A stretch of DNA of 64,000 nt, from contig NC_018025.1 of assembly GCF_000266945.1 (NCBI RefSeq), positions 4,096,001 through 4,160,000 of the forward strand. Reading direction: 5' to 3'. A program made the translations under genes and the position numbers. Positions 37,440-49,809 of this stretch are shown here, one piece after another. The stretch's first letter is position 1, and every line of letters begins with the position of its first letter. This DNA comes from Desulfomonile tiedjei DSM 6799. Its GTDB lineage: Bacteria > Desulfobacterota > Desulfomonilia > Desulfomonilales > Desulfomonilaceae. Under the pieces are notes generated by a model. The model was not told the origin of the DNA. It saw only the letters and a list, made by a program, of their open reading frames with translations, and did not search any database.

Positions 37440-37513
37440 GTTCGATTGCGAAAAAACACCGCCCCACAATTGGTGGGTGCCGTGCCTCTGTGCCGGCACG
37501 TTTTTCAAATATT
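37440..37513 (+). repeat. MITE-like repeat, short copy 3
   Basis: It starts GTTCGATTGCGAAAA, continues to GGTGGGTGCCGTGCCTC, then GTGCCGGCACGTTTTTCAA, the same block order as 33712-33774 on the other strand. The last part matches the interior of the long copy at 29522. It ends at the stop codon of the TIGR03943-type gene. Confidence 0.55.
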
Positions 37514-38247
37514 CACTGAAACAGGAACTGCTCTTTTGGAGGATCTATAGTCTCAACTCTTTCGGCGGTAATTTGCATTACTTGCTTGTCTTCGATGGTT
37601 TCTATCCCCAGTTTTCCTTCAACTCTGATCCATGACCCTGCTGCCAGATTGCTCGAGTCGGCATATTTTACGAGCACCCCAACAGGTCTGGCATCTGCTG
37701 CACAGCAAAACATAAGCAATTGATAGCAGAAAAACGTATTCTCAGGCAGCTTGTCGTTCGTATACACCATGCCTATGGTGCTGATTTTCCTACCTTCATA
37801 GGATTTCGCGTCCACGACGAGTCGAAGCAGTGACGGATCGTTCGGAAGGTCCGCGGCATCGTTTTTCGGAGAATTGGCTGCCATGCTGCTTTGGCCGGAA
37901 TGGCTCATATCGATTGAACGTTTCTCCAGAGCTTCGGGACTGAGTTCCGATACAACAGCCTGCGGGAGGTACAGTAACGGCAGCAGGAGTATCCCTATCT
38001 GTACGAGCAGGGTCACGCCTCTCTTGCCGCGAGTATGCGGATCGCAATAAACACGCGCTATCACAAAGACAACCAGTATGCCCGCGCCTACTTCCACCAG
38101 CCACCAGTAATCGGGACGGAGAAACTTGGCAATCAGATGCCTGCCTCCCATCCCCTGTAGAAGAAGACAGAAAGCCGCAATCCATGCCACCAGGACAATC
38201 AACTGGAACAGATGGGAAAAAGACGCAGTTTCTCGCTTACTGTGCAC
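37513..38247 (-). CDS. TIGR03943/DUF1980 family membrane protein
   Basis: This 244-residue protein has three or four N-terminal transmembrane helices and a C-terminal OB-fold-like domain (about 140-235) with FFCYQLLMFCCAADARPVGV and SWIRVEGKLG. This pattern is that of the TIGR03943 (YcgQ-like) family, which is nearly always encoded beside a permease of the YcgR type, as here with an 11-nt overlap. The conserved CCAAD cysteines could bind metal. Its place at the end of a metal-uptake operon suggests a role in metal homeostasis; this is inference. Confidence 0.82.
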   Translation of the reverse strand: MHSKRETASFSHLFQLIVLVAWIAAFCLLLQGMGGRHLIAKFLRPDYWWLVEVGAGILVVFVIARVYCDPHTRGKRGVTLLVQIGILLLPLLYLPQAVVSELSPEALEKRSIDMSHSGQSSMAANSPKNDAADLPNDPSLLRLVVDAKSYEGRKISTIGMVYTNDKLPENTFFCYQLLMFCCAADARPVGVLVKYADSSNLAAGSWIRVEGKLGIETIEDKQVMQITAERVETIDPPKEQFLFQ

Positions 38248-39373
38248 CGGGCAGACCTCCTAATCCATATTGCAGAAACGAGGTGCACGCCAAAACCATC
38301 CCGAAGATGAGCAAAGAAAGAACCAGGATGGTGCGTTTGCGGAACATGGTCAGGTACATCAGCAGGAGTTTGACATCAAGCATAGGGCCAAGAAGCATAA
38401 AAGCCATTTGAGCAGTATCCGGCAGCACACCTCTGAACCCGGCTGCTATGAATGCATCGGTTTCACTACACAGATTGAGCGCCATTGCAAGCGCCATCAT
38501 TGCGATGATTGCCAGTCCCGGTGAGGCAAACAGCTCACGAAAAACATCCACGCCGATAATCGTCCTGCATCCCGCCGCTACAAATGCTCCAATCACAAGA
38601 AACTTGCCGACGTCAAAGAAATCGTCACAGGCGTGCTGGAACGCTGCAAGTAAGCGCTGTGTTACGCTCCTGTGGCTGTCTCCATGATCGTGTGCGCCAC
38701 AACCGCATGCTGAATGTGTCAGAGCATGCGCATCCTCCAGGAGCATATCTTTCTGTTGAAAGAGAAAGCTCATGATGAGCGCTATGGCAACCGCAATGCC
38801 GTAGCCGAACACCATGCGGGTACCAAGAAAGGTCCAGTCGCCGCGGTACGCGAGCCATGTGGACCCCGCCACAACCGGATTTACGATGGGGCCTCCGAGA
38901 AGAAACGCTATTGCTGCGGATGCGGGAACGCCTTTGTGCAGCAGTCTCCGTACGACAGGGATTATTGCGCACTCGCATACGGGGAAAACCGCCCCTAAAC
39001 CGGCGGCAATAAGAATGCTCGTGTGGGTTCGTCCTGCAAGGATTCGACTCACCCATTCCTGCGGGATGAAAGTCTCTATCAAACCGCCGATTACTGCACC
39101 GATCAGCATGAATGGCATGGCCTCCAACATAATGGCCACAAAGCTGATGGACAGATCGTTGACAGCAGTATCGATCCCGAGCCCTTTTCCAAACACCAGC
39201 AACCCTGCGGCAAAGATCAGGAACGCTGCTTCAATGAGAAACGTGAAATTGAAAGTACCTTGATAATTGGCCGAATTCACATCAGCGACGGACAGATTCT
39301 GTGAGTTGGAGTCTCCACAAGTGCATGAAGTAACGTGGTATTCGGTTTGGCTGCAATGATGATCGTTGGACAC
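38237..39373 (-). CDS. Predicted permease (ArsP/DUF318, YcgR-like)
   Basis: The 378-residue protein has about eight transmembrane helices and the family motifs FVAIMLEAMPFMLIGAVIGG, here noted as MLEAMPFMLIGAV, then GAVFPVCECAIIPVVRRLL and LLGGPIVNPVVAGSTW. The CEC pair in PVCECAIIP is characteristic. The N-terminus (HHCSQTEYHVTSCTCG) and a central loop (ACGCGAHDHGDSHRS) are rich in Cys and His, as expected for a protein handling soft metals. It overlaps the TIGR03943 gene and lies 86 nt behind the ZnuB-like gene on the same strand. The substrate is unknown; metal or metal-chelate transport is plausible. Confidence 0.85.
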   Translation of the reverse strand: MSNDHHCSQTEYHVTSCTCGDSNSQNLSVADVNSANYQGTFNFTFLIEAAFLIFAAGLLVFGKGLGIDTAVNDLSISFVAIMLEAMPFMLIGAVIGGLIETFIPQEWVSRILAGRTHTSILIAAGLGAVFPVCECAIIPVVRRLLHKGVPASAAIAFLLGGPIVNPVVAGSTWLAYRGDWTFLGTRMVFGYGIAVAIALIMSFLFQQKDMLLEDAHALTHSACGCGAHDHGDSHRSVTQRLLAAFQHACDDFFDVGKFLVIGAFVAAGCRTIIGVDVFRELFASPGLAIIAMMALAMALNLCSETDAFIAAGFRGVLPDTAQMAFMLLGPMLDVKLLLMYLTMFRKRTILVLSLLIFGMVLACTSFLQYGLGGLPGAQ

Positions 39374-39459: not shown

Positions 39460-40308
39460 TCAGGATCTTCCTCGAGTCGAAACCCACTTCAACGTGGTGG
39501 CTGCAAGATAGGCTGCACCGGCAATGATGATCGTTGCCGCTCCGGCAGGATAATCCGGAACGTAGCTCAATGCAAGCCCCGACGTGGTAAATAGGGCGCA
39601 AAGAATGGCAGAAAGGATCATCATCCGCCACAACGTCCCGGAGTAAAGGGCCGCTATCCCGATGGGAAGTGTTAAGAGGGCAATTACCATGACTATTCCG
39701 ACTACAGTGGATAGTACCACGACCGTCAGGGCAGTCAGGCACAACAGCAGCAGATAAAAGAACTCAACGTTGAGACCTCGCAGGCGGGCGAACTCGTCGT
39801 CAAAGCAGACAGCAAGGAACTGATTGTAAAAGAGCACTCCAATGAGAAGAATGACAAAATCCAGGCCGGCGAGAGTCCACAAATCGGTGCTGGAGACGAG
39901 CAAAATATTGCCGAAGAGATAACTCATAAGATCTTCATTGTATCCGGGTGTTCGGGAGATGAAGATAATGCCTATGGCCATACCTACGGCCCAAATAGCG
40001 CTGATAACGTTGTCTTCCCGCTGTTTTGCCCAGAGGCTCACCAATCCTATTATTATGGCTGCCAGGATAGCTGTGACGATTGCTCCATGCATCGGCAGCA
40101 CTCCGGGCATATGATGGACTTTCTGAATGTACAAAGCCGCGCCCATGCCACCCAGTACTGCATGGGCAATGCCGTCGGCAATGTACGATATCCTGCGGAC
40201 CACAACGTACGTGCCGATGATTCCGCAAGCGATGCTGGCAAGGATTCCCGTTAAGAGGGCATGCTGGAGAAAGGGATAAATTTGTACGTCAGTTATAAAT
40301 TGCTGCAA
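39460..40308 (-). CDS. znuB: Metal ABC transporter permease (ZnuB/MntB family)
   Basis: The 282-residue inner-membrane protein has eight or nine helices and the ABC-3 family start FLQHALLTGILASIACGIIGTYVVVRR, here noted as ILASIACGIIGTYVVVRR. The SYIADGIAHAVLGG motif contacts the ATPase, and a conserved FDDEFARLRGL loop precedes the last helices. It forms the channel for zinc or manganese uptake. Its start overlaps the end of the ATPase gene by 16 nt. Zinc is favoured over manganese because of the histidine-rich companions, but sequence alone does not decide. Confidence 0.9.
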   Translation of the reverse strand: MQQFITDVQIYPFLQHALLTGILASIACGIIGTYVVVRRISYIADGIAHAVLGGMGAALYIQKVHHMPGVLPMHGAIVTAILAAIIIGLVSLWAKQREDNVISAIWAVGMAIGIIFISRTPGYNEDLMSYLFGNILLVSSTDLWTLAGLDFVILLIGVLFYNQFLAVCFDDEFARLRGLNVEFFYLLLLCLTALTVVVLSTVVGIVMVIALLTLPIGIAALYSGTLWRMMILSAILCALFTTSGLALSYVPDYPAGAATIIIAGAAYLAATTLKWVSTRGRS

Positions 40309-41057
40309 ATACTGTCCCCTTCACCATTATGTCTTATCATCCTCATAGGTGAGCCATAGATGTCATTGATTATCTCACCTGTTATCTCAGTTGTGGGATG
40401 CATGAGGACTTTGCGTTTCACACAAATCACGCTCTTGATAATTCTCGATACGAATCCCAGATCGTGTGAGACCATCATGATAGTGAGACGTTCATTCAAC
40501 GTCCTCAGCAATTGGTATAGGTCTGTTTCCATGACTGCGTCCAGATTCGCAGCGGGTTCATCCAGGAGTAGCAGGTCCGGTTCGCAGGCCAAAGCGCGTG
40601 CTATGAGCAATCGCTGCCGCTGGCCTCCGGACAGGGCCGAAAATGATTTTTTTCGCAGCTCGTAGAGTCCGACCTGTTTCAGAGCCTCAGAGACGACGTT
40701 CTTGTCCTCCCGTGAATAGCCTCCGAATAAACCGCCGCGGCCGAGCCGTCCCATCAACGCCACATCCATCAACGTTGCGGGAAACAACGGATCGAGTTGC
40801 GTGTACTGGGGCATGTACCCGATCCGCGGCCGTGCCTGCTCCGGTGTCATCCCCATGACTCGGACTTCACCTCGAGTCGGTCGAAGCAATCCCAGTATCA
40901 CCTTCAGGAGAGTGGTCTTGCCGCCGCCGTTCGGTCCGACAACGGATACAAAATCGCCTCGAGGAATGGAAAGATTCACATTCTCCAATGCAGGATATCC
41001 GTTGTACGCGAACCAGAGGTCCTTTACAAAAACTGCGGGACTGTTTTGTTCATCCAT
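40293..41057 (-). CDS. znuC: Metal ABC transporter ATPase (ZnuC-like)
   Basis: This cytoplasmic ATPase of about 254 residues has Walker A GPNGGGKTT, Q-loop YMPQYTQLD, signature LSGGQRQR, Walker B LLLLDEPAANLD and switch histidine MVSHDLGFV, in the order and spacing of ZnuC/MntA-type proteins. ATG 41057 matches the usual family start. An upstream GTG at 41141 overlaps the stop codon of the binding-protein gene and would add 28 atypical residues, so translational coupling from there is possible. It powers the permease encoded downstream. Confidence 0.9.
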   Translation of the reverse strand: MDEQNSPAVFVKDLWFAYNGYPALENVNLSIPRGDFVSVVGPNGGGKTTLLKVILGLLRPTRGEVRVMGMTPEQARPRIGYMPQYTQLDPLFPATLMDVALMGRLGRGGLFGGYSREDKNVVSEALKQVGLYELRKKSFSALSGGQRQRLLIARALACEPDLLLLDEPAANLDAVMETDLYQLLRTLNERLTIMMVSHDLGFVSRIIKSVICVKRKVLMHPTTEITGEIINDIYGSPMRMIRHNGEGDSICSNL

Positions 41058-41137
41058 AGGATTTCTCGCTATCCGTTCTAATACTAATTTGCATTCAAAG
41101 AGATAAGATCTTACTGCCTTGAAAGCACATTGGTAAG

Positions 41138-42046
41138 TCACTTCTTCTGAGTCGCAAGAGCGGCTTCGAGCTTTGAAGCCATATCCTGCAGGTTCTTGAG
41201 ATAATCCGGTGCAAGGTCATCAAGAGGTATCACCGCTCCACCAATGGATCTTGCCAGAGTTTCTGCGGTTTTTTGCGAAAATTGCGGTTGCACGAAGATG
41301 ACCTTCACGTCGTCTTCTTTTGCTAATTCGATCAATCTGGCAAGTTGTCTTGCTGTGGGTTCTTTTCCACCCAATTGGACTGCCACCTGTTTCAATCCGT
41401 ATGCATCCCCAAAGTAGCCATATGCCGGATGGAATACGAAAAATTTCTTACCCTTTATTGGCGCAAGAGCTTTGGTCAATTGATCGTCGATCGCATCCAA
41501 ATCCTTCTGCACATCTGCCAGATTTTTCTCGTACACGGCTTTGTTGGCGGGATCGAGGCTAATGAGTGTGTCGGCAATAGTTTGTGCCTGAATCTTGGCA
41601 AGTCTCGGATCCAGCCATGTGTGCGGATCTTTCTCCCCGGCATCATGAGCATGACCGTGGGAGTCTCCGTGATCGTGCTCTTCCTCTTCCGTCATGGTCC
41701 TGAGTTCAATTCCCTTCTGAAGATCCACTACTTTAAGATTCTTGAACATAGGGCCGATCTTTTTGATGACCGATTCCTCGAACGGAAAGCCCATCTTGAA
41801 CAGGACTCGAGCACCAGACAGCTTCGCGACAAGTTTCGGGGTCGGCTCAAACGTGTGGGGATCCTGACCGGGCCCTACCAACACATTGGTGTTCACATGG
41901 GGACCTCCAATCCGGTCCACAAAATATGCTGCAGGCAGCAAACTGACGAATACTTCTACTTTGCCTTTTTGATCTGCATTGACAGGCAGAGTGACTGTCA
42001 AAATGGCTATCAACAACAGAGTAATTGTGCCCAAAAAAGTTCGCAT
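41138..42046 (-). CDS. znuA: Periplasmic metal-binding protein (ZnuA-like)
   Basis: The 302-residue protein has a signal peptide (to about residue 24, VNADQ) and the cluster A-I binding-protein fold. Metal ligands are expected in GPGQDPHTFEPTP, the second DPHTWLDP and FHPAYGYFGD. A histidine/acidic loop (EEEEHDHGDSHGHAHDAGE) precedes the second ligand, a feature of zinc rather than manganese binding proteins. It delivers metal to the ZnuB/ZnuC-like transporter. The gene lies 48 nt behind the ribbon-helix-helix regulator gene and appears to share its promoter. Confidence 0.91.
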   Translation of the reverse strand: MRTFLGTITLLLIAILTVTLPVNADQKGKVEVFVSLLPAAYFVDRIGGPHVNTNVLVGPGQDPHTFEPTPKLVAKLSGARVLFKMGFPFEESVIKKIGPMFKNLKVVDLQKGIELRTMTEEEEHDHGDSHGHAHDAGEKDPHTWLDPRLAKIQAQTIADTLISLDPANKAVYEKNLADVQKDLDAIDDQLTKALAPIKGKKFFVFHPAYGYFGDAYGLKQVAVQLGGKEPTARQLARLIELAKEDDVKVIFVQPQFSQKTAETLARSIGGAVIPLDDLAPDYLKNLQDMASKLEAALATQKK

Positions 42047-42094: not shown

Positions 42095-42385
42095 TCAATC
42101 CGACGAATGGTGATGCAAGTCTTTGTTGTCGCTCCGATCGCATACCACATGGACGGCATTGCAGGTCTCACATTCCTCAAAATGATGATCATGCACGAAC
42201 TCCTCCCAGTGCGGCCGCTGATTCGGCATAATGAGGCCGGTTCCCCTGCAGAGAGGGCATATATTATCGAGCGCTGCTATTACCGCTGCCCGTATAAATT
42301 CCGATCTGTTGGGGATGCCTTTCATTGCGTCTCTCAGAGATTCCGGGACTTTGAACGTGATGACATCGAGCTTTTCCCTTTTCAT
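42095..42385 (-). CDS. Metal-sensing ribbon-helix-helix regulator with Cys/His tail
   Basis: The 96-residue protein begins with a ribbon-helix-helix DNA-binding domain (strand LDVITFKVPES, helices LRDAMKGI and RSEFIRAAVIAALDN) as in CopG/NikR proteins. The C-terminal half has CPLC, HDHHFEECETC and DLHHHSSD, enough ligands for one or more zinc ions, and replaces the ACT domain of NikR. It is probably a metal-dependent repressor. ATG 42385 has GGGAGAG upstream and was preferred to an upstream frame extension. It is the first gene of the metal-uptake operon, with a palindrome over its own promoter and a related one before the outer-membrane protein gene. Zinc is inferred from context. Confidence 0.82.
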   Translation of the reverse strand: MKREKLDVITFKVPESLRDAMKGIPNRSEFIRAAVIAALDNICPLCRGTGLIMPNQRPHWEEFVHDHHFEECETCNAVHVVCDRSDNKDLHHHSSD

Positions 42386-42410
42386 GTGGACACTCTCCCA
42401 ACGCGAAGAT

Positions 42411-42448
42411 TTGACAAGCATTGTTACTTTGTAACACCGACTTGTCAA
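42411..42448 (-). promoter_or_regulatory. Promoter with nested palindromic operator for the metal-uptake operon
   Basis: Inner arms TGTTAC and GTAACA flank TTT (42422-42436) and outer arms TTGACAAG and CTTGTCAA flank these. On the minus strand TTGACA (42448-42443) and AACAAT (42425-42420) are 17 nt apart, a good sigma-70 pair, so a protein bound to the dyad would cover the promoter. The core TACAAAGTA also occurs at 44742-44758. The ribbon-helix-helix protein encoded next is the likely ligand. Confidence 0.65.
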
Positions 42449-42497
42449 GGCTCGTGCGATTGGGCATGTGGCCTAAGGCAGAAAACCCGGCTGAAAT

Positions 42498-42929
42498 TCA
42501 ACCGGAGACCCCAATCCCCCACAGACGGTCGTACCCGTGATCGTGCCCTTTGCCATGTTCATGCCCTTCGTGACTATGATGATCGTGTGAACCGTGTCCA
42601 TCCTCGTGGGACTGGTGATCATCTTCGTGAACAGGATTAGCATCCCCGTGACTGTGATGAGCATCCCCATGATCGTGACTGTCCTTGTGACCGTGTTTAT
42701 GGCTGTGCCCATGACTGTCCCTGCTTTGCTTACTGCCAAGATCTCTCAAATCGTATTTGCTTTTTGGTTTGAGATCATGCTTGTGAGCGTGTTGATGGAT
42801 GCTTTGATCCGCTTGACGGTGCTTGGGCGGTTCGTGACCCTGAGCGATTTTGACATCATTCGCGTTGCACAGCGAACTCACCGTCGTCAGAGAGAACAAG
42901 ATGAACGCGACGATCAATGTTTTCTTCAT
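42498..42929 (-). CDS. Histidine-rich periplasmic protein
   Basis: The 143-residue product has a signal peptide (to about residue 23, SLCNA) and a mature region of low complexity, rich in His, Asp, Gly and Ser, with 28 histidines (for example HGHSHKHGHKDSHDHGDAHH). It ends GYDRLWGIGVSG. Such proteins buffer or scavenge zinc, nickel or copper in the periplasm. The gene follows the outer-membrane barrel gene by 25 nt and precedes the metal regulator, so it belongs to the same regulon. The composition gives little homology signal; function is inferred from composition and position. Confidence 0.72.
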   Translation of the reverse strand: MKKTLIVAFILFSLTTVSSLCNANDVKIAQGHEPPKHRQADQSIHQHAHKHDLKPKSKYDLRDLGSKQSRDSHGHSHKHGHKDSHDHGDAHHSHGDANPVHEDDHQSHEDGHGSHDHHSHEGHEHGKGHDHGYDRLWGIGVSG

Positions 42930-42954
42930 TTTCGAGTCTCCTTAAAGAGCCACT

Positions 42955-44697
42955 TTAAAAGTCGAATCTGAGCAGGAACTCGCCACCTATCACGGGGTCT
43001 ATTTTTTTTGTCGGTCTGGTCCCGAAGAAATTCGCGGGAGTGCCTGTTTCCCATCCTGGAACGGATCGGTCTATGCATGCGTAGCTGAACCACTCGCCCG
43101 GCTGCCAATATGCAACGTTAACCGTGAATAGCCATTGCTCCAGGAGAGCCCAATCAATGCGGCCCATGATTTCCCAGCCCAGGGATCCATCCGGAATATT
43201 GGGCGAGGCCGGATATCGATTGAGATTCAGATCGATGTTCCCGTCAGGCGTCCCGGGAAACGCTCCAAGTCCCGCATTAGGGCCGATGCACCCCCAACTG
43301 TATCCGTTACTGGTCCTCTCGGCCCGCACATAGCTAAGGCAAACGTTCAAGTTCGCTGCCACCGCATAGTCAAGGCGACCTGCCAGGACAAAGGCGTCCC
43401 TCATATATCCCCATCCTGAGAGGCTGTAAGCATTGAGACCCGCCCCATAATCGCGAGCAATGAGCCAACTGTACGGCTTGAAAAGAACGTGATTACCAAG
43501 TGTCCGATCGTAATTAGGGTGACGAACAAAGACTGCAGGCTGTTTGTCGATGAGTGTGCCGTTTCTTCGATCCGGTCCGGGAGACCAAAACTGAAGCAGA
43601 GTCAGTTTTGCCGGCCCCATCAGCCAACCCCACTCCATTGCATAGCGCCATTGCTCGATGTATCGCGGGTTTGGAAAACCTACTGCCTGATTGGGGTCTG
43701 CATGCCACCTGTCCGTCCAATAAACCCATGCCGCCTCTCCATTGATGAAAAACCGGCCGTTGAAGTACTTGGCGAAGACAGAGCCATGGACTATCTCAGA
43801 GTCCTGGGGTACCAATCTCGTAACGAGTGGATCGTTAGGATCGTCGATGAGCGCCTCCGGACCGATGTGGTAACTCCCGTACGTGCCGAGGATTCCCATG
43901 TGCAACGGTCCGTTCATGTATCTGACGAACCCGAGCACATCCTTGGAAAAGGTCCCGCCCCCATCCGCTCTGCTGTAGTACTGTCCAGGTACGACGGCCC
44001 CGCTTGCACGCAGATATTCCGGTAAATTGTAAGGATCCCCCAACTCATCCGCGATGAGTTGAATGCTCGATGTACCCGCGAATCTGAAGGGATAATACGC
44101 GAGGCCAAAGTCCAGGGGGCCGAAGGGAACGTTTATGAGCATTGATTCCGTGGTTGCTGAAGAGCTGCCCAAATCTCCTCCGTCATACTGAACGCCCAGG
44201 CCGAAAGCCCACGGACGTTTTCCAAGGACAAACTGGCCCCAGGGCGTCTGTACCGTGGCCCAAAACAGCGTCCATTGGCCGTCACTCATGGCCGTGTTGA
44301 TTCCCGGCGAGTTCTGGGTGAGGTAATCCTCACTCACCGGTTCACCGTATGAGGCGAGACGATATTTGGCGTTTAGCCGCATTGCGGGATTGAGTTGAAA
44401 GGTAGGCTCGAATTCCACTTCGAAATATGACCAGCCCGCCTTGGCTGAAGTGCTGATATTGGTGTCGAACTGCCCACCGTTCCAGAAATTAAAGTTCCCG
44501 ACCCTTGTGCCGCCTCCATTGTCCACATTGTACGGACCGAAGAATCCTTTGGAACTGGTTTGGGCATACCATTCGTAATGCCACAACATATGCGCGTGCA
44601 GATCCATCTCCCAGGCTCCGACCGAACACGGGATTGAAGCAAGGAGCAGGGCGAGCAATGTGCCCATGAAACATCTGCGAACAATAATCGAACGCAT
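42955..44697 (-). CDS. Outer-membrane beta-barrel protein of the metal regulon
   Basis: The 580-residue protein has a signal peptide (to about residue 28, SVGAWE), a long series of aromatic-rich alternating segments and a C-terminal phenylalanine (GGEFLLRFDF), the signature for insertion into the outer membrane. It resembles large uncharacterised porin-like proteins annotated in deltaproteobacteria. GAGGAGGGAGG is directly before the ATG. A palindrome related to the one before the metal regulator lies 45-61 nt upstream, so it may open the outer membrane to metal or metal-chelates under limitation. Substrate specificity is unproven. Confidence 0.78.
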   Translation of the reverse strand: MRSIIVRRCFMGTLLALLLASIPCSVGAWEMDLHAHMLWHYEWYAQTSSKGFFGPYNVDNGGGTRVGNFNFWNGGQFDTNISTSAKAGWSYFEVEFEPTFQLNPAMRLNAKYRLASYGEPVSEDYLTQNSPGINTAMSDGQWTLFWATVQTPWGQFVLGKRPWAFGLGVQYDGGDLGSSSATTESMLINVPFGPLDFGLAYYPFRFAGTSSIQLIADELGDPYNLPEYLRASGAVVPGQYYSRADGGGTFSKDVLGFVRYMNGPLHMGILGTYGSYHIGPEALIDDPNDPLVTRLVPQDSEIVHGSVFAKYFNGRFFINGEAAWVYWTDRWHADPNQAVGFPNPRYIEQWRYAMEWGWLMGPAKLTLLQFWSPGPDRRNGTLIDKQPAVFVRHPNYDRTLGNHVLFKPYSWLIARDYGAGLNAYSLSGWGYMRDAFVLAGRLDYAVAANLNVCLSYVRAERTSNGYSWGCIGPNAGLGAFPGTPDGNIDLNLNRYPASPNIPDGSLGWEIMGRIDWALLEQWLFTVNVAYWQPGEWFSYACIDRSVPGWETGTPANFFGTRPTKKIDPVIGGEFLLRFDF

Positions 44698-44741
44698 CCT
44701 CCCTCCTCAGCCCTGGTGAAAACTTTCACTGGGCCCTTAAA

Positions 44742-44758
44742 GTAATACAAAGTATTAC
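44742..44758 (-). promoter_or_regulatory. Second palindromic operator, upstream of the outer-membrane protein gene
   Basis: GTAATAC-AAA-GTATTAC is a perfect 7-bp dyad whose core TACAAAGTA is identical to that of the palindrome at 42422-42436. A -35 TTGACA lies on the minus strand at 44793-44788, with a weak -10 (TACACG) after 18 nt, so the dyad falls just downstream of the promoter. Binding by the metal-sensing regulator is inferred. Confidence 0.6.
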
Positions 44759-48329: not shown

Positions 48330-49809
48330 CTATAGTTTCGCCCTTTTTGTATTCTGGACGGTTAGATGGTGAGATAATCCTTGAAAAAATAAGGCGTTCC
48401 GCACATACCCGGTTTTGTGTAAAGATTCTGGGAAGGAGGAACGCCAGTTGAAGAGATCTATACCAGATCCGTTCGGGATTGACGAGATTCATTTCAGAGC
48501 GTGTTTCAGCGCACCGAGTTTCCGTATCTTCGTTGCGCTGGTGGTCGGTTGGGTGCTCACTATGGGCAAGCACACTATCAGCCAGGTGATTCTGACCATG
48601 AGACTCCATGAATCCAAGCACTTCGCCAGCATCTACCGATTCCTCGGCAAGGGACGATGGGAGACTGACTTTGTCTCCTATTTCGTCTTCAGAATGTTGG
48701 TAGAAACGCTGATTGCAGAAGGGATCGAGATCCTTGTGGTGATTGACGACACCTTGAACAAGCACACTGGCAAGAAGATCTGTGGCGCGGGCTGGCAGCA
48801 TGATGGTTCACTCCCAAAGCATACTAAGCAAAAGGGGTATGGAGTGTGCTTTGTCATCATAGGACTGGCGATTCGCCTTCCCGGCATCAGCGATCGCATG
48901 TTTTGTCTGCCATACGCTGCCCGCCTTTGGTGGCCGCCAAAGGCCAAGTTTAATCCCAAGAGCCTGCCCTACAAGACAAAACCCGAACTTGGATTGGATC
49001 TTATAAATCTGACTCATTCATGGCTCCAAGAGGGAGAAAGACTGAGAATTGTGTTCGACCTGGGATACTGCTGCGATACCATCCTCAAAGCACGACCCAA
49101 GAATGTGCACATTACAGGGAGGCTGAGAAAGGATGCAGCTTTGTTCGCTGTGCTGGAACCTGCTCCATTTACAGTGATGGGCAGACCTCGCAAGAGAGGC
49201 GCTCGACTGCCCTCCCTGGAAACGATGTTCCAGGACCCCAATCTGGGGTGGAATGAGATTAGGGTCTTCTGCTATGGAAAACAAACTAAGCTCCTGATAC
49301 ATCAGTTCACGGCGCTATGGTATCATAGCGCAGGGCAACAGCCTCTTTCGATCGTGTTGTGCCATGACCCGGCCGGCCACCATGCCAATATGGTGTTTTT
49401 CGATACGGACCCTCAGGCTGCACCACAGCAGATTATCGAGCGCTACGCTGCACGCTTTAGCATTGAGATGACCAATCGAGAGACCAAGAACCTCCTGGGT
49501 GCGGCTGAACCTCAGTGTCGGAAAGAGACCTCGGTAACCCGTGCCCCTATGTTTGCTTACTGGGCCTACTGCTTTGTAGTGCTTTGGTTCGTTGGGCAAT
49601 TCGTCACTGCAAAGAACCTCGTTGCCGACCCGGCTCCCTGGTACTGCCGGAAAAAGTCGTTCACCTTTTCAGACATGCTGGCAGCAGCTCGAAGGAGTCA
49701 TTTCTCGCTGAGAATTTATTCGAAAGCCAGCCGAATCAATAAGTTCGAAAAACTCAACGGCCCGCGCTCCACGCGCGGACTCGACCATGCAAGAATCGCG
49801 AAACTATAG
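48330..49809 (+). mobile_element. Intact insertion sequence, 1480 bp, DDE transposase
   Basis: Terminal inverted repeats CTATAGTTTCGC (48330-48341) and GCGAAACTATAG (49798-49809) are perfect for 12 bp and partly similar further in. They enclose one transposase gene, whose stop codon TAG forms the outer end of the right repeat. Perfect 9-bp target duplications flank the element. This target length fits IS4-like groups better than IS701 (4 bp). The intact frame and exact duplication suggest a recent insertion into an intergenic site. Confidence 0.88.
48448..49809 (+). CDS. DDE transposase of the insertion sequence
   Basis: The protein of about 453 residues has an RNase H-like DDE core: first aspartate in LVVIDDTLNKHTGKK, second in IVFDLGYCCDTIL, and glutamate in the signature IERYAARFSIEMTNRETK, as in DDE_5/IS4-type transposases. 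Its start is probably TTG 48448, preceded by GGAAGGAGGA. No frameshift or internal stop is present, so it should be functional. The gene reads through the right inverted repeat and stops on its last base. No accessory gene is carried. Confidence 0.88.
   Translation: MKRSIPDPFGIDEIHFRACFSAPSFRIFVALVVGWVLTMGKHTISQVILTMRLHESKHFASIYRFLGKGRWETDFVSYFVFRMLVETLIAEGIEILVVIDDTLNKHTGKKICGAGWQHDGSLPKHTKQKGYGVCFVIIGLAIRLPGISDRMFCLPYAARLWWPPKAKFNPKSLPYKTKPELGLDLINLTHSWLQEGERLRIVFDLGYCCDTILKARPKNVHITGRLRKDAALFAVLEPAPFTVMGRPRKRGARLPSLETMFQDPNLGWNEIRVFCYGKQTKLLIHQFTALWYHSAGQQPLSIVLCHDPAGHHANMVFFDTDPQAAPQQIIERYAARFSIEMTNRETKNLLGAAEPQCRKETSVTRAPMFAYWAYCFVVLWFVGQFVTAKNLVADPAPWYCRKKSFTFSDMLAAARRSHFSLRIYSKASRINKFEKLNGPRSTRGLDHARIAKL

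Follow-up and report, generated by a model that had tools for sequence, protein, structure and literature searches.

The DNA analysed here, a stretch of 64,000 nt that we call the window, is G000:C1:4096001-4160000 of the Desulfomonile tiedjei DSM 6799 genome (6.53 Mb, 2 contigs). On its minus strand it carries, in order of transcription, operator 2, a barrel gene, a gene for a His-rich protein, operator 1, a regulator gene, znuA, znuC, znuB, an ArsP_1-type permease gene and a gene for a TIGR03943 protein. The barrel gene (42955..44697) encodes a 580-aa predicted outer-membrane protein with a signal peptide and a barrel-typical C-terminal aromatic residue, and its partner (42498..42929) a small exported protein of 143 aa that is rich in histidine. 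The regulator gene (42095..42385, with a conserved ATG at 42385) encodes a 96-aa putative ribbon-helix-helix (RHH) protein with a tail of the form CPLC/H/H/CETC/C. It is followed by genes for a ZnuA-type periplasmic binding protein with a His-rich loop and His as third ligand (41138..42046; Pfam ZnuA, 2.9e-75), a ZnuC-type ABC ATPase (40293..41141; Pfam ABC_tran) and a ZnuB-type ABC permease (39460..40308; Pfam ABC-3, 2.1e-67). The ZnuC start is perhaps at 41057, as tblastn alignments of relatives mostly open near residue 28-39. These profile matches within one operon, and the retention of the gene order in relatives, bear out the original prediction of ZnuABC-like uptake targets. The interval that it gave, 42095-44758, was too short for the operon, since RHH-znuA-znuC-znuB is followed by an ArsP_1-type permease (38237..39373), probably in the same operon, and by a TIGR03943 (DUF1980) protein (37513..38247) that is probably the partner of the permease and the end of the operon, which thus reaches 37513. 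Permeases resembling the ArsP_1 type of the window come after an operator-bearing znuA in two other genomes (G282 and G102), and in G102 a protein like that of the TIGR03943 gene closes the znuA operon.

The N-terminus of the regulator is probably an RHH DNA-binding unit, an assignment that rests on sub-threshold profile matches. An archaeal RHH model matches its first 36 residues below threshold, and among 74 relatives RHH_1 (Pfam) matches 26 and the RHH model aCcr1 (NCBIfam) 73, mostly weakly and below threshold. The AlphaFold monomer had a pLDDT of 64 when built from 21 sequences and 81 when built from 74; the latter contains helices at 15-20, 27-40 and 54-66, its tail also forms two short strands, and its first two helices, behind an extended N-terminus, fit the RHH layout as far as a monomer rather than a dimer can display it. 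Foldseek and VIA-align returned no usable solved-fold match to the predicted monomer, a result that is uninformative if the dimer is intertwined.

Across 98 distinct regulator sequences, C43, C46, H59, H67, C72 and C82 are 100% conserved and C75 is 99% conserved, while F11, K12, N26, S28, F30, I31 and R32 are also kept in the DNA-binding half. CPLC, HDHH, CETC and HHH had been proposed as metal ligands standing in place of the NikR sensing domain. All four motifs are present in the protein, and the replacement of the sensing domain agrees with the lack of any NikR_C match there, but as a list of ligands they hold only in part: the Cys residues of CPLC and CETC are kept, as is H67, whereas neither HHH nor the first His of HDHH is conserved, and the invariant H59 and C82 had been missed. 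The tail had also been called new-looking, and none of the curated models in Pfam or NCBIfam extends over it; over the 74 relatives no model names the whole protein, and the FUR domain (PF01475) has no match in the regulator. A DnaJ CxxCxGxG piece matches the tail below threshold (Pfam/NCBIfam), and the DnaJ-type zinc finger scores 19 bits against a Pfam cut-off of 32.7, with a single copy of CxxCxGxG. From the invariant Cys and His residues we infer that the tail binds metal directly; that the seven candidate ligands could make up a sensory site next to a structural one is speculation.

Both palindromes of the original prediction were recovered at their positions, 42422-42436 and 44742-44758. 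Operator 2 (44742..44758), upstream of the outer-membrane gene, is a perfect heptamer pair, GTAATAC-AAA-GTATTAC (GTAATACAAAGTATTAC). Operator 1, upstream of the regulator ATG, has a 15-bp core palindrome, TGTTACTTTGTAACA, at 42422-42436, and reads GTGTTAC-AAA-GTAACAA on the minus strand in a 17-bp frame (42421..42437). Its placement over the regulator's own promoter was likewise upheld: TTGACA, the likely -35 box of the regulator (42443..42448, minus strand), starts 11 bp before the operator, which spans the spacer and the place where the -10 box is expected. TTGACA-like boxes in relatives usually start 9-12 bp before the operator, 11 bp being commonest, and the operator therefore overlies the spacer and -10 there as well. 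The core said to be shared by both sites, TACAAAGTA, is uninformative by itself, because its 28 genomic copies are fewer than the 57 of the reversed control and show no enrichment.

Nor is the symmetry that of the single palindrome first described, for the operator consists of two self-complementary heptamers, GTAWTAC-N3-GTAWTAC, 10 bp apart. The central W bases of the left and right heptamers vary independently (AA 26, AT 20, TA 26, TT 14; Fisher p=0.51), from which it follows that each heptamer is its own dyad at a 10-bp pitch, and not half of one 17-bp palindrome. The spacer AAA is not conserved (AAA 19, TTT 14, and others; n=88 promoters). If one mismatch is allowed, this motif is present in 76 of 98 distinct regulator promoters, and if two are allowed, in 88, while the reversed motif occurs in none of the 98 and never falls below three mismatches; among 18,078 random 212-bp windows from the same loci, 12 contain the motif when one mismatch is allowed. 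Operator 1, at three mismatches, is a weaker variant, and similar variants are seen at L066 (GTGTTACAAAGTAATAA) and L115 (GTGTTACCGCGTAACAC).

The genome-wide search for the dyad that had been recommended singled out operator 2 as the only GTAWTAC-N3-GTAWTAC without mismatch in the 6.5-Mb genome. The gene-oriented motif gave 42 sites in 46 genomes, one per genome in most, and 36 of these lie at regulator/znu loci, hence a local regulon. Other candidates were set aside: the relaxed operator TRWTACNNNGTAWYA found 7 matches genome-wide against 6 for the control and no confident extra targets; a one-mismatch site at C1:4846770, just past a regulator-like gene and not ahead of a metal gene, was judged to be chance, as were several one-mismatch matches inside genes in G102, G251 and G131; and a perfect motif inside metK of two spirochaetes is a coding coincidence.

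Homologues of the regulator are present in 21 of 297 genomes of the phylum, that of the window included, and the other 20 are 45-67% identical to it. A profile built from relatives recovered at least 217 matches in 10 or more phylum-level groups, which by record titles include Desulfobacterota, Planctomycetota, Zixibacteria, Spirochaetota, Bacillota and Hydrogenedentota, and further Myxococcota, Glassbacteria, Eisenbacteria, Sumerlaeota and TA06. No relative was found on the viral contigs or the plasmids searched. In all 20 of the other homologues in the phylum, genes for ZnuA, ZnuC and/or ZnuB directly follow the regulator, and 73 of the best 80 among the at least 217 relatives across phyla adjoin znu genes (the sequence of L126 ends too early to judge, and relatives L104 and L123 have neither an operator nor znu adjoining). 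Together with the operator in 88 of 98 promoters, these counts support the proposed grouping of regulator, operators and uptake genes.

To judge from its positions, the operator follows the znu genes and not the regulator gene. At four loci where the regulator does not head znu (L089, L092, L108 and L139) the operator stands before znuA; in G282 and G196, where the regulator operon lacks znuA, it is found before an orphan znuA; and in a spirochaete with a lone regulator gene (G323) a perfect operator precedes znuABC on another contig. Three genomes (G172, G053 and G196) have an additional perfect operator before a gene for a small His-containing membrane protein and a TonB-dependent receptor; the receptor in G172 has metal and heme receptors as relatives in the PDB, and these include ZnuD, which is not the top match. 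The permease linked to the regulator is the sole strong ABC-3 permease in almost all of the 21 genomes; the genome of the window has two more, both without an operator.

Several neighbourhoods depart from this arrangement. Further ZnuABC-like loci without an operator lie elsewhere in the same genome (L233, G000:C1:5010000-5020000; L234, G000:C1:5518000-5527000) and may serve other metals or answer to other regulators. In a member of the Desulfobacteraceae (L079, 6644-8704) transposase-like genes have seemingly been inserted between regulator and znuA, and in a planctomycete (L118, 6510-7472) regulator and operator are followed by a His-rich membrane protein and no znu genes, this protein being possibly a different metal transporter. 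Among the binding proteins themselves, the first metal-ligand His of ZnuA (DPHTFEP) is Ala (SPATYEP) in 19 of 74 relatives, for instance at L166 and L170, which suggests a subtype of ZnuA whose metal site has changed.

In our reading, which we hold with good confidence, high-affinity zinc uptake is under the control of the regulator, a dedicated and autoregulated repressor with zinc as corepressor. The paired GTAWTAC heptamers, one helical turn apart, would hold two RHH dimers next to each other on the same face of the DNA, much as other RHH repressors bind, the number of dimers being suggested by the self-complementarity of each heptamer. Since the operator overlies the promoter, the bound dimers would keep RNA polymerase from transcribing the regulator-znuACB operon and also, in the genome of the window, the genes for the outer-membrane protein and the small protein that accompanies it. 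The tail, C43-x2-C46 ... H59 ... H67 ... C72-x2-C75 ... C82, would bind zinc, and zinc loading would favour the DNA-binding form, so that the operons would be released when zinc is short; corepression by metal is the expected mode because uptake genes are placed under a protein with seven near-invariant soft ligands. Thus an RHH metalloregulator of zinc uptake with a broad distribution is the most likely interpretation of these sequences. With rather less assurance, we favour the wider proposal of a novel metalloregulator family. Its members would combine an RHH DNA-binding unit with a small zinc-sensing module of Cys and His residues that has no relationship to the sensor domain of NikR; they would recognise paired GTAWTAC heptamers and, in Desulfobacterota, Planctomycetota, Zixibacteria, Spirochaetota, Bacillota and others, take the place of Zur in the local control of zinc uptake.

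The identity of the metal is suggested by the target genes, zinc being favoured as effector because of the third-ligand His and His-rich loop of ZnuA and the Cys-rich ligands of the tail. It is unlikely, in our estimation, that the same repressor and operator respond instead to manganese, iron, cobalt or nickel. ZnuABC-type transporters do include Mn and Fe members; with Mn families the ATPase of the window reaches nearly the same score and the binding protein a slightly higher one, and no NCBIfam equivalog cut-off is reached for ZnuA, AztC or MntC. PsaA-type Mn binding proteins, however, have Glu at the third ligand, where zinc-type ZnuA has His, and this position is His in 73 of 74 relatives, many of them with a His-rich loop. 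Moreover, a Cys-rich tail prefers Zn over Mn, and nickel is already served by a genuine NikR elsewhere in the genome. We regard as similarly doubtful the suggestion that the metal of the tail is structural, as in a DnaJ- or anti-TRAP-like zinc knuckle, and that the regulator responds to some other signal, such as a protein partner or the redox state of thiols. A CxxCxGxG motif may have no role beyond structure, that of the regulator resembles the DnaJ and anti-TRAP zinc modules with weak significance, and Cys-rich zinc sites can act as redox switches; but seven near-invariant Cys and His residues exceed one tetrahedral site, the targets are almost only metal-uptake genes, and an uptake system needs a metal-responsive switch.

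Two further explanations have become very improbable. Short dyads are common and the first reading rested on two, so the palindromes might have arisen by chance, act as terminators, or be bound by some other factor, Zur for instance; against this, the motif leaves a phylogenetic footprint over 10 or more phyla and is unlike the Zur boxes reported for delta-proteobacteria (PMC545781). In the 21 genomes no FUR-family gene adjoins these znu loci, and three genomes have none at all, which disposes of a FUR protein as adjacent regulator of znu. As for a nickel regulator of the NikR family, the RHH domain would accord with it, and operator 1 resembles the NikR half-sites of delta-proteobacteria, where the signal is GTGTTAC-N13/14-GTAACAC (PMC545781). 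Membership is nevertheless refuted by the absence of NikR_C from the regulator and by an operator spacer of 3 bp, not 13-14, in 88 of 98 promoters; the targets are znu genes, and the true NikR of this genome lies at C1:3376040.

Zinc-responsive repression by the regulator, as we propose it, has partial counterparts in several known systems. NikR similarly combines an RHH start with a C-terminal metal-ligand part and represses metal uptake operons, as the regulator presumably does. It differs in having an ACT-type NikR_C domain instead of a short Cys/His module, half-sites 13-16 bp apart instead of adjacent boxes 10 bp centre to centre, and nickel targets where those here are of zinc type, with one separate NikR_C gene in the genome. 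The RHH repressors MetJ, Arc and omega bind short tandem boxes, one dimer each, and the boxes described here would each suit one RHH dimer too, although the ligand is presumably a metal held by an added Cys/His tail. Anti-TRAP (RtpA) and DnaJ have the CPxCxGxG signature in common with the regulator, at weak significance, but they are not DNA-binding regulators, their models match it below curated cut-offs, and they lack the rest of the tail (H59, H67, C72, C75, C82). ZnuABC-like transporters are also controlled by AdcR and other regulators of zinc uptake outside the FUR family, AdcR being a MarR-family winged-helix protein unrelated to the regulator of the window. With Zur the regulator has in common the target znuABC and, presumably, corepression by zinc, whereas its fold is unrelated to the FUR family, its operator is different, and its regulon is local, of one to few operons, among which neither ribosomal-protein genes nor folE2 were seen.

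Rodionov et al. 2004 (PMC545781) noted that several delta-proteobacteria possess znuABC but neither Zur nor its sites, and did not settle how the genes are controlled there; the regulator family is a candidate answer. Our search of open-access PMC found no RHH regulator of zinc uptake described and, as far as we could find, no such switch for the at least 10 major bacterial groups that carry the family. If correct, our proposal would give the RHH superfamily a second architecture for sensing metals, beside that of NikR, the only one met in the literature searched. The exact operator lets znu regulons be called in many uncultured lineages, and the small size of the system (a 96-aa protein and a 17-bp site) makes it easy to test.

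The outer-membrane gene behind operator 2 encodes a protein without any Pfam match. A genome of the same family (G102), whose regulator operon lacks znuA, has a 55%-identical barrel homologue that shares a perfect operator with a divergent znuA-permease-TIGR03943 operon, while the barrel paralogues examined in G000 and G102 have no operator (three or more mismatches). The exported partner had been described as His-rich, which is true in the window but not of its counterparts elsewhere, which are acidic. The barrel family has several paralogues in the genome of the window and in G102 (42498-44697; L218, L220, L171, L071), and a small exported protein follows several of these copies, the only motif shared among such proteins being a C-terminal G-[YFW]-D-R-x-W; only the operator-linked partner in the window is rich in His. 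A few kb upstream of the regulated genes there is a transposase-like ORF (48415-49809).
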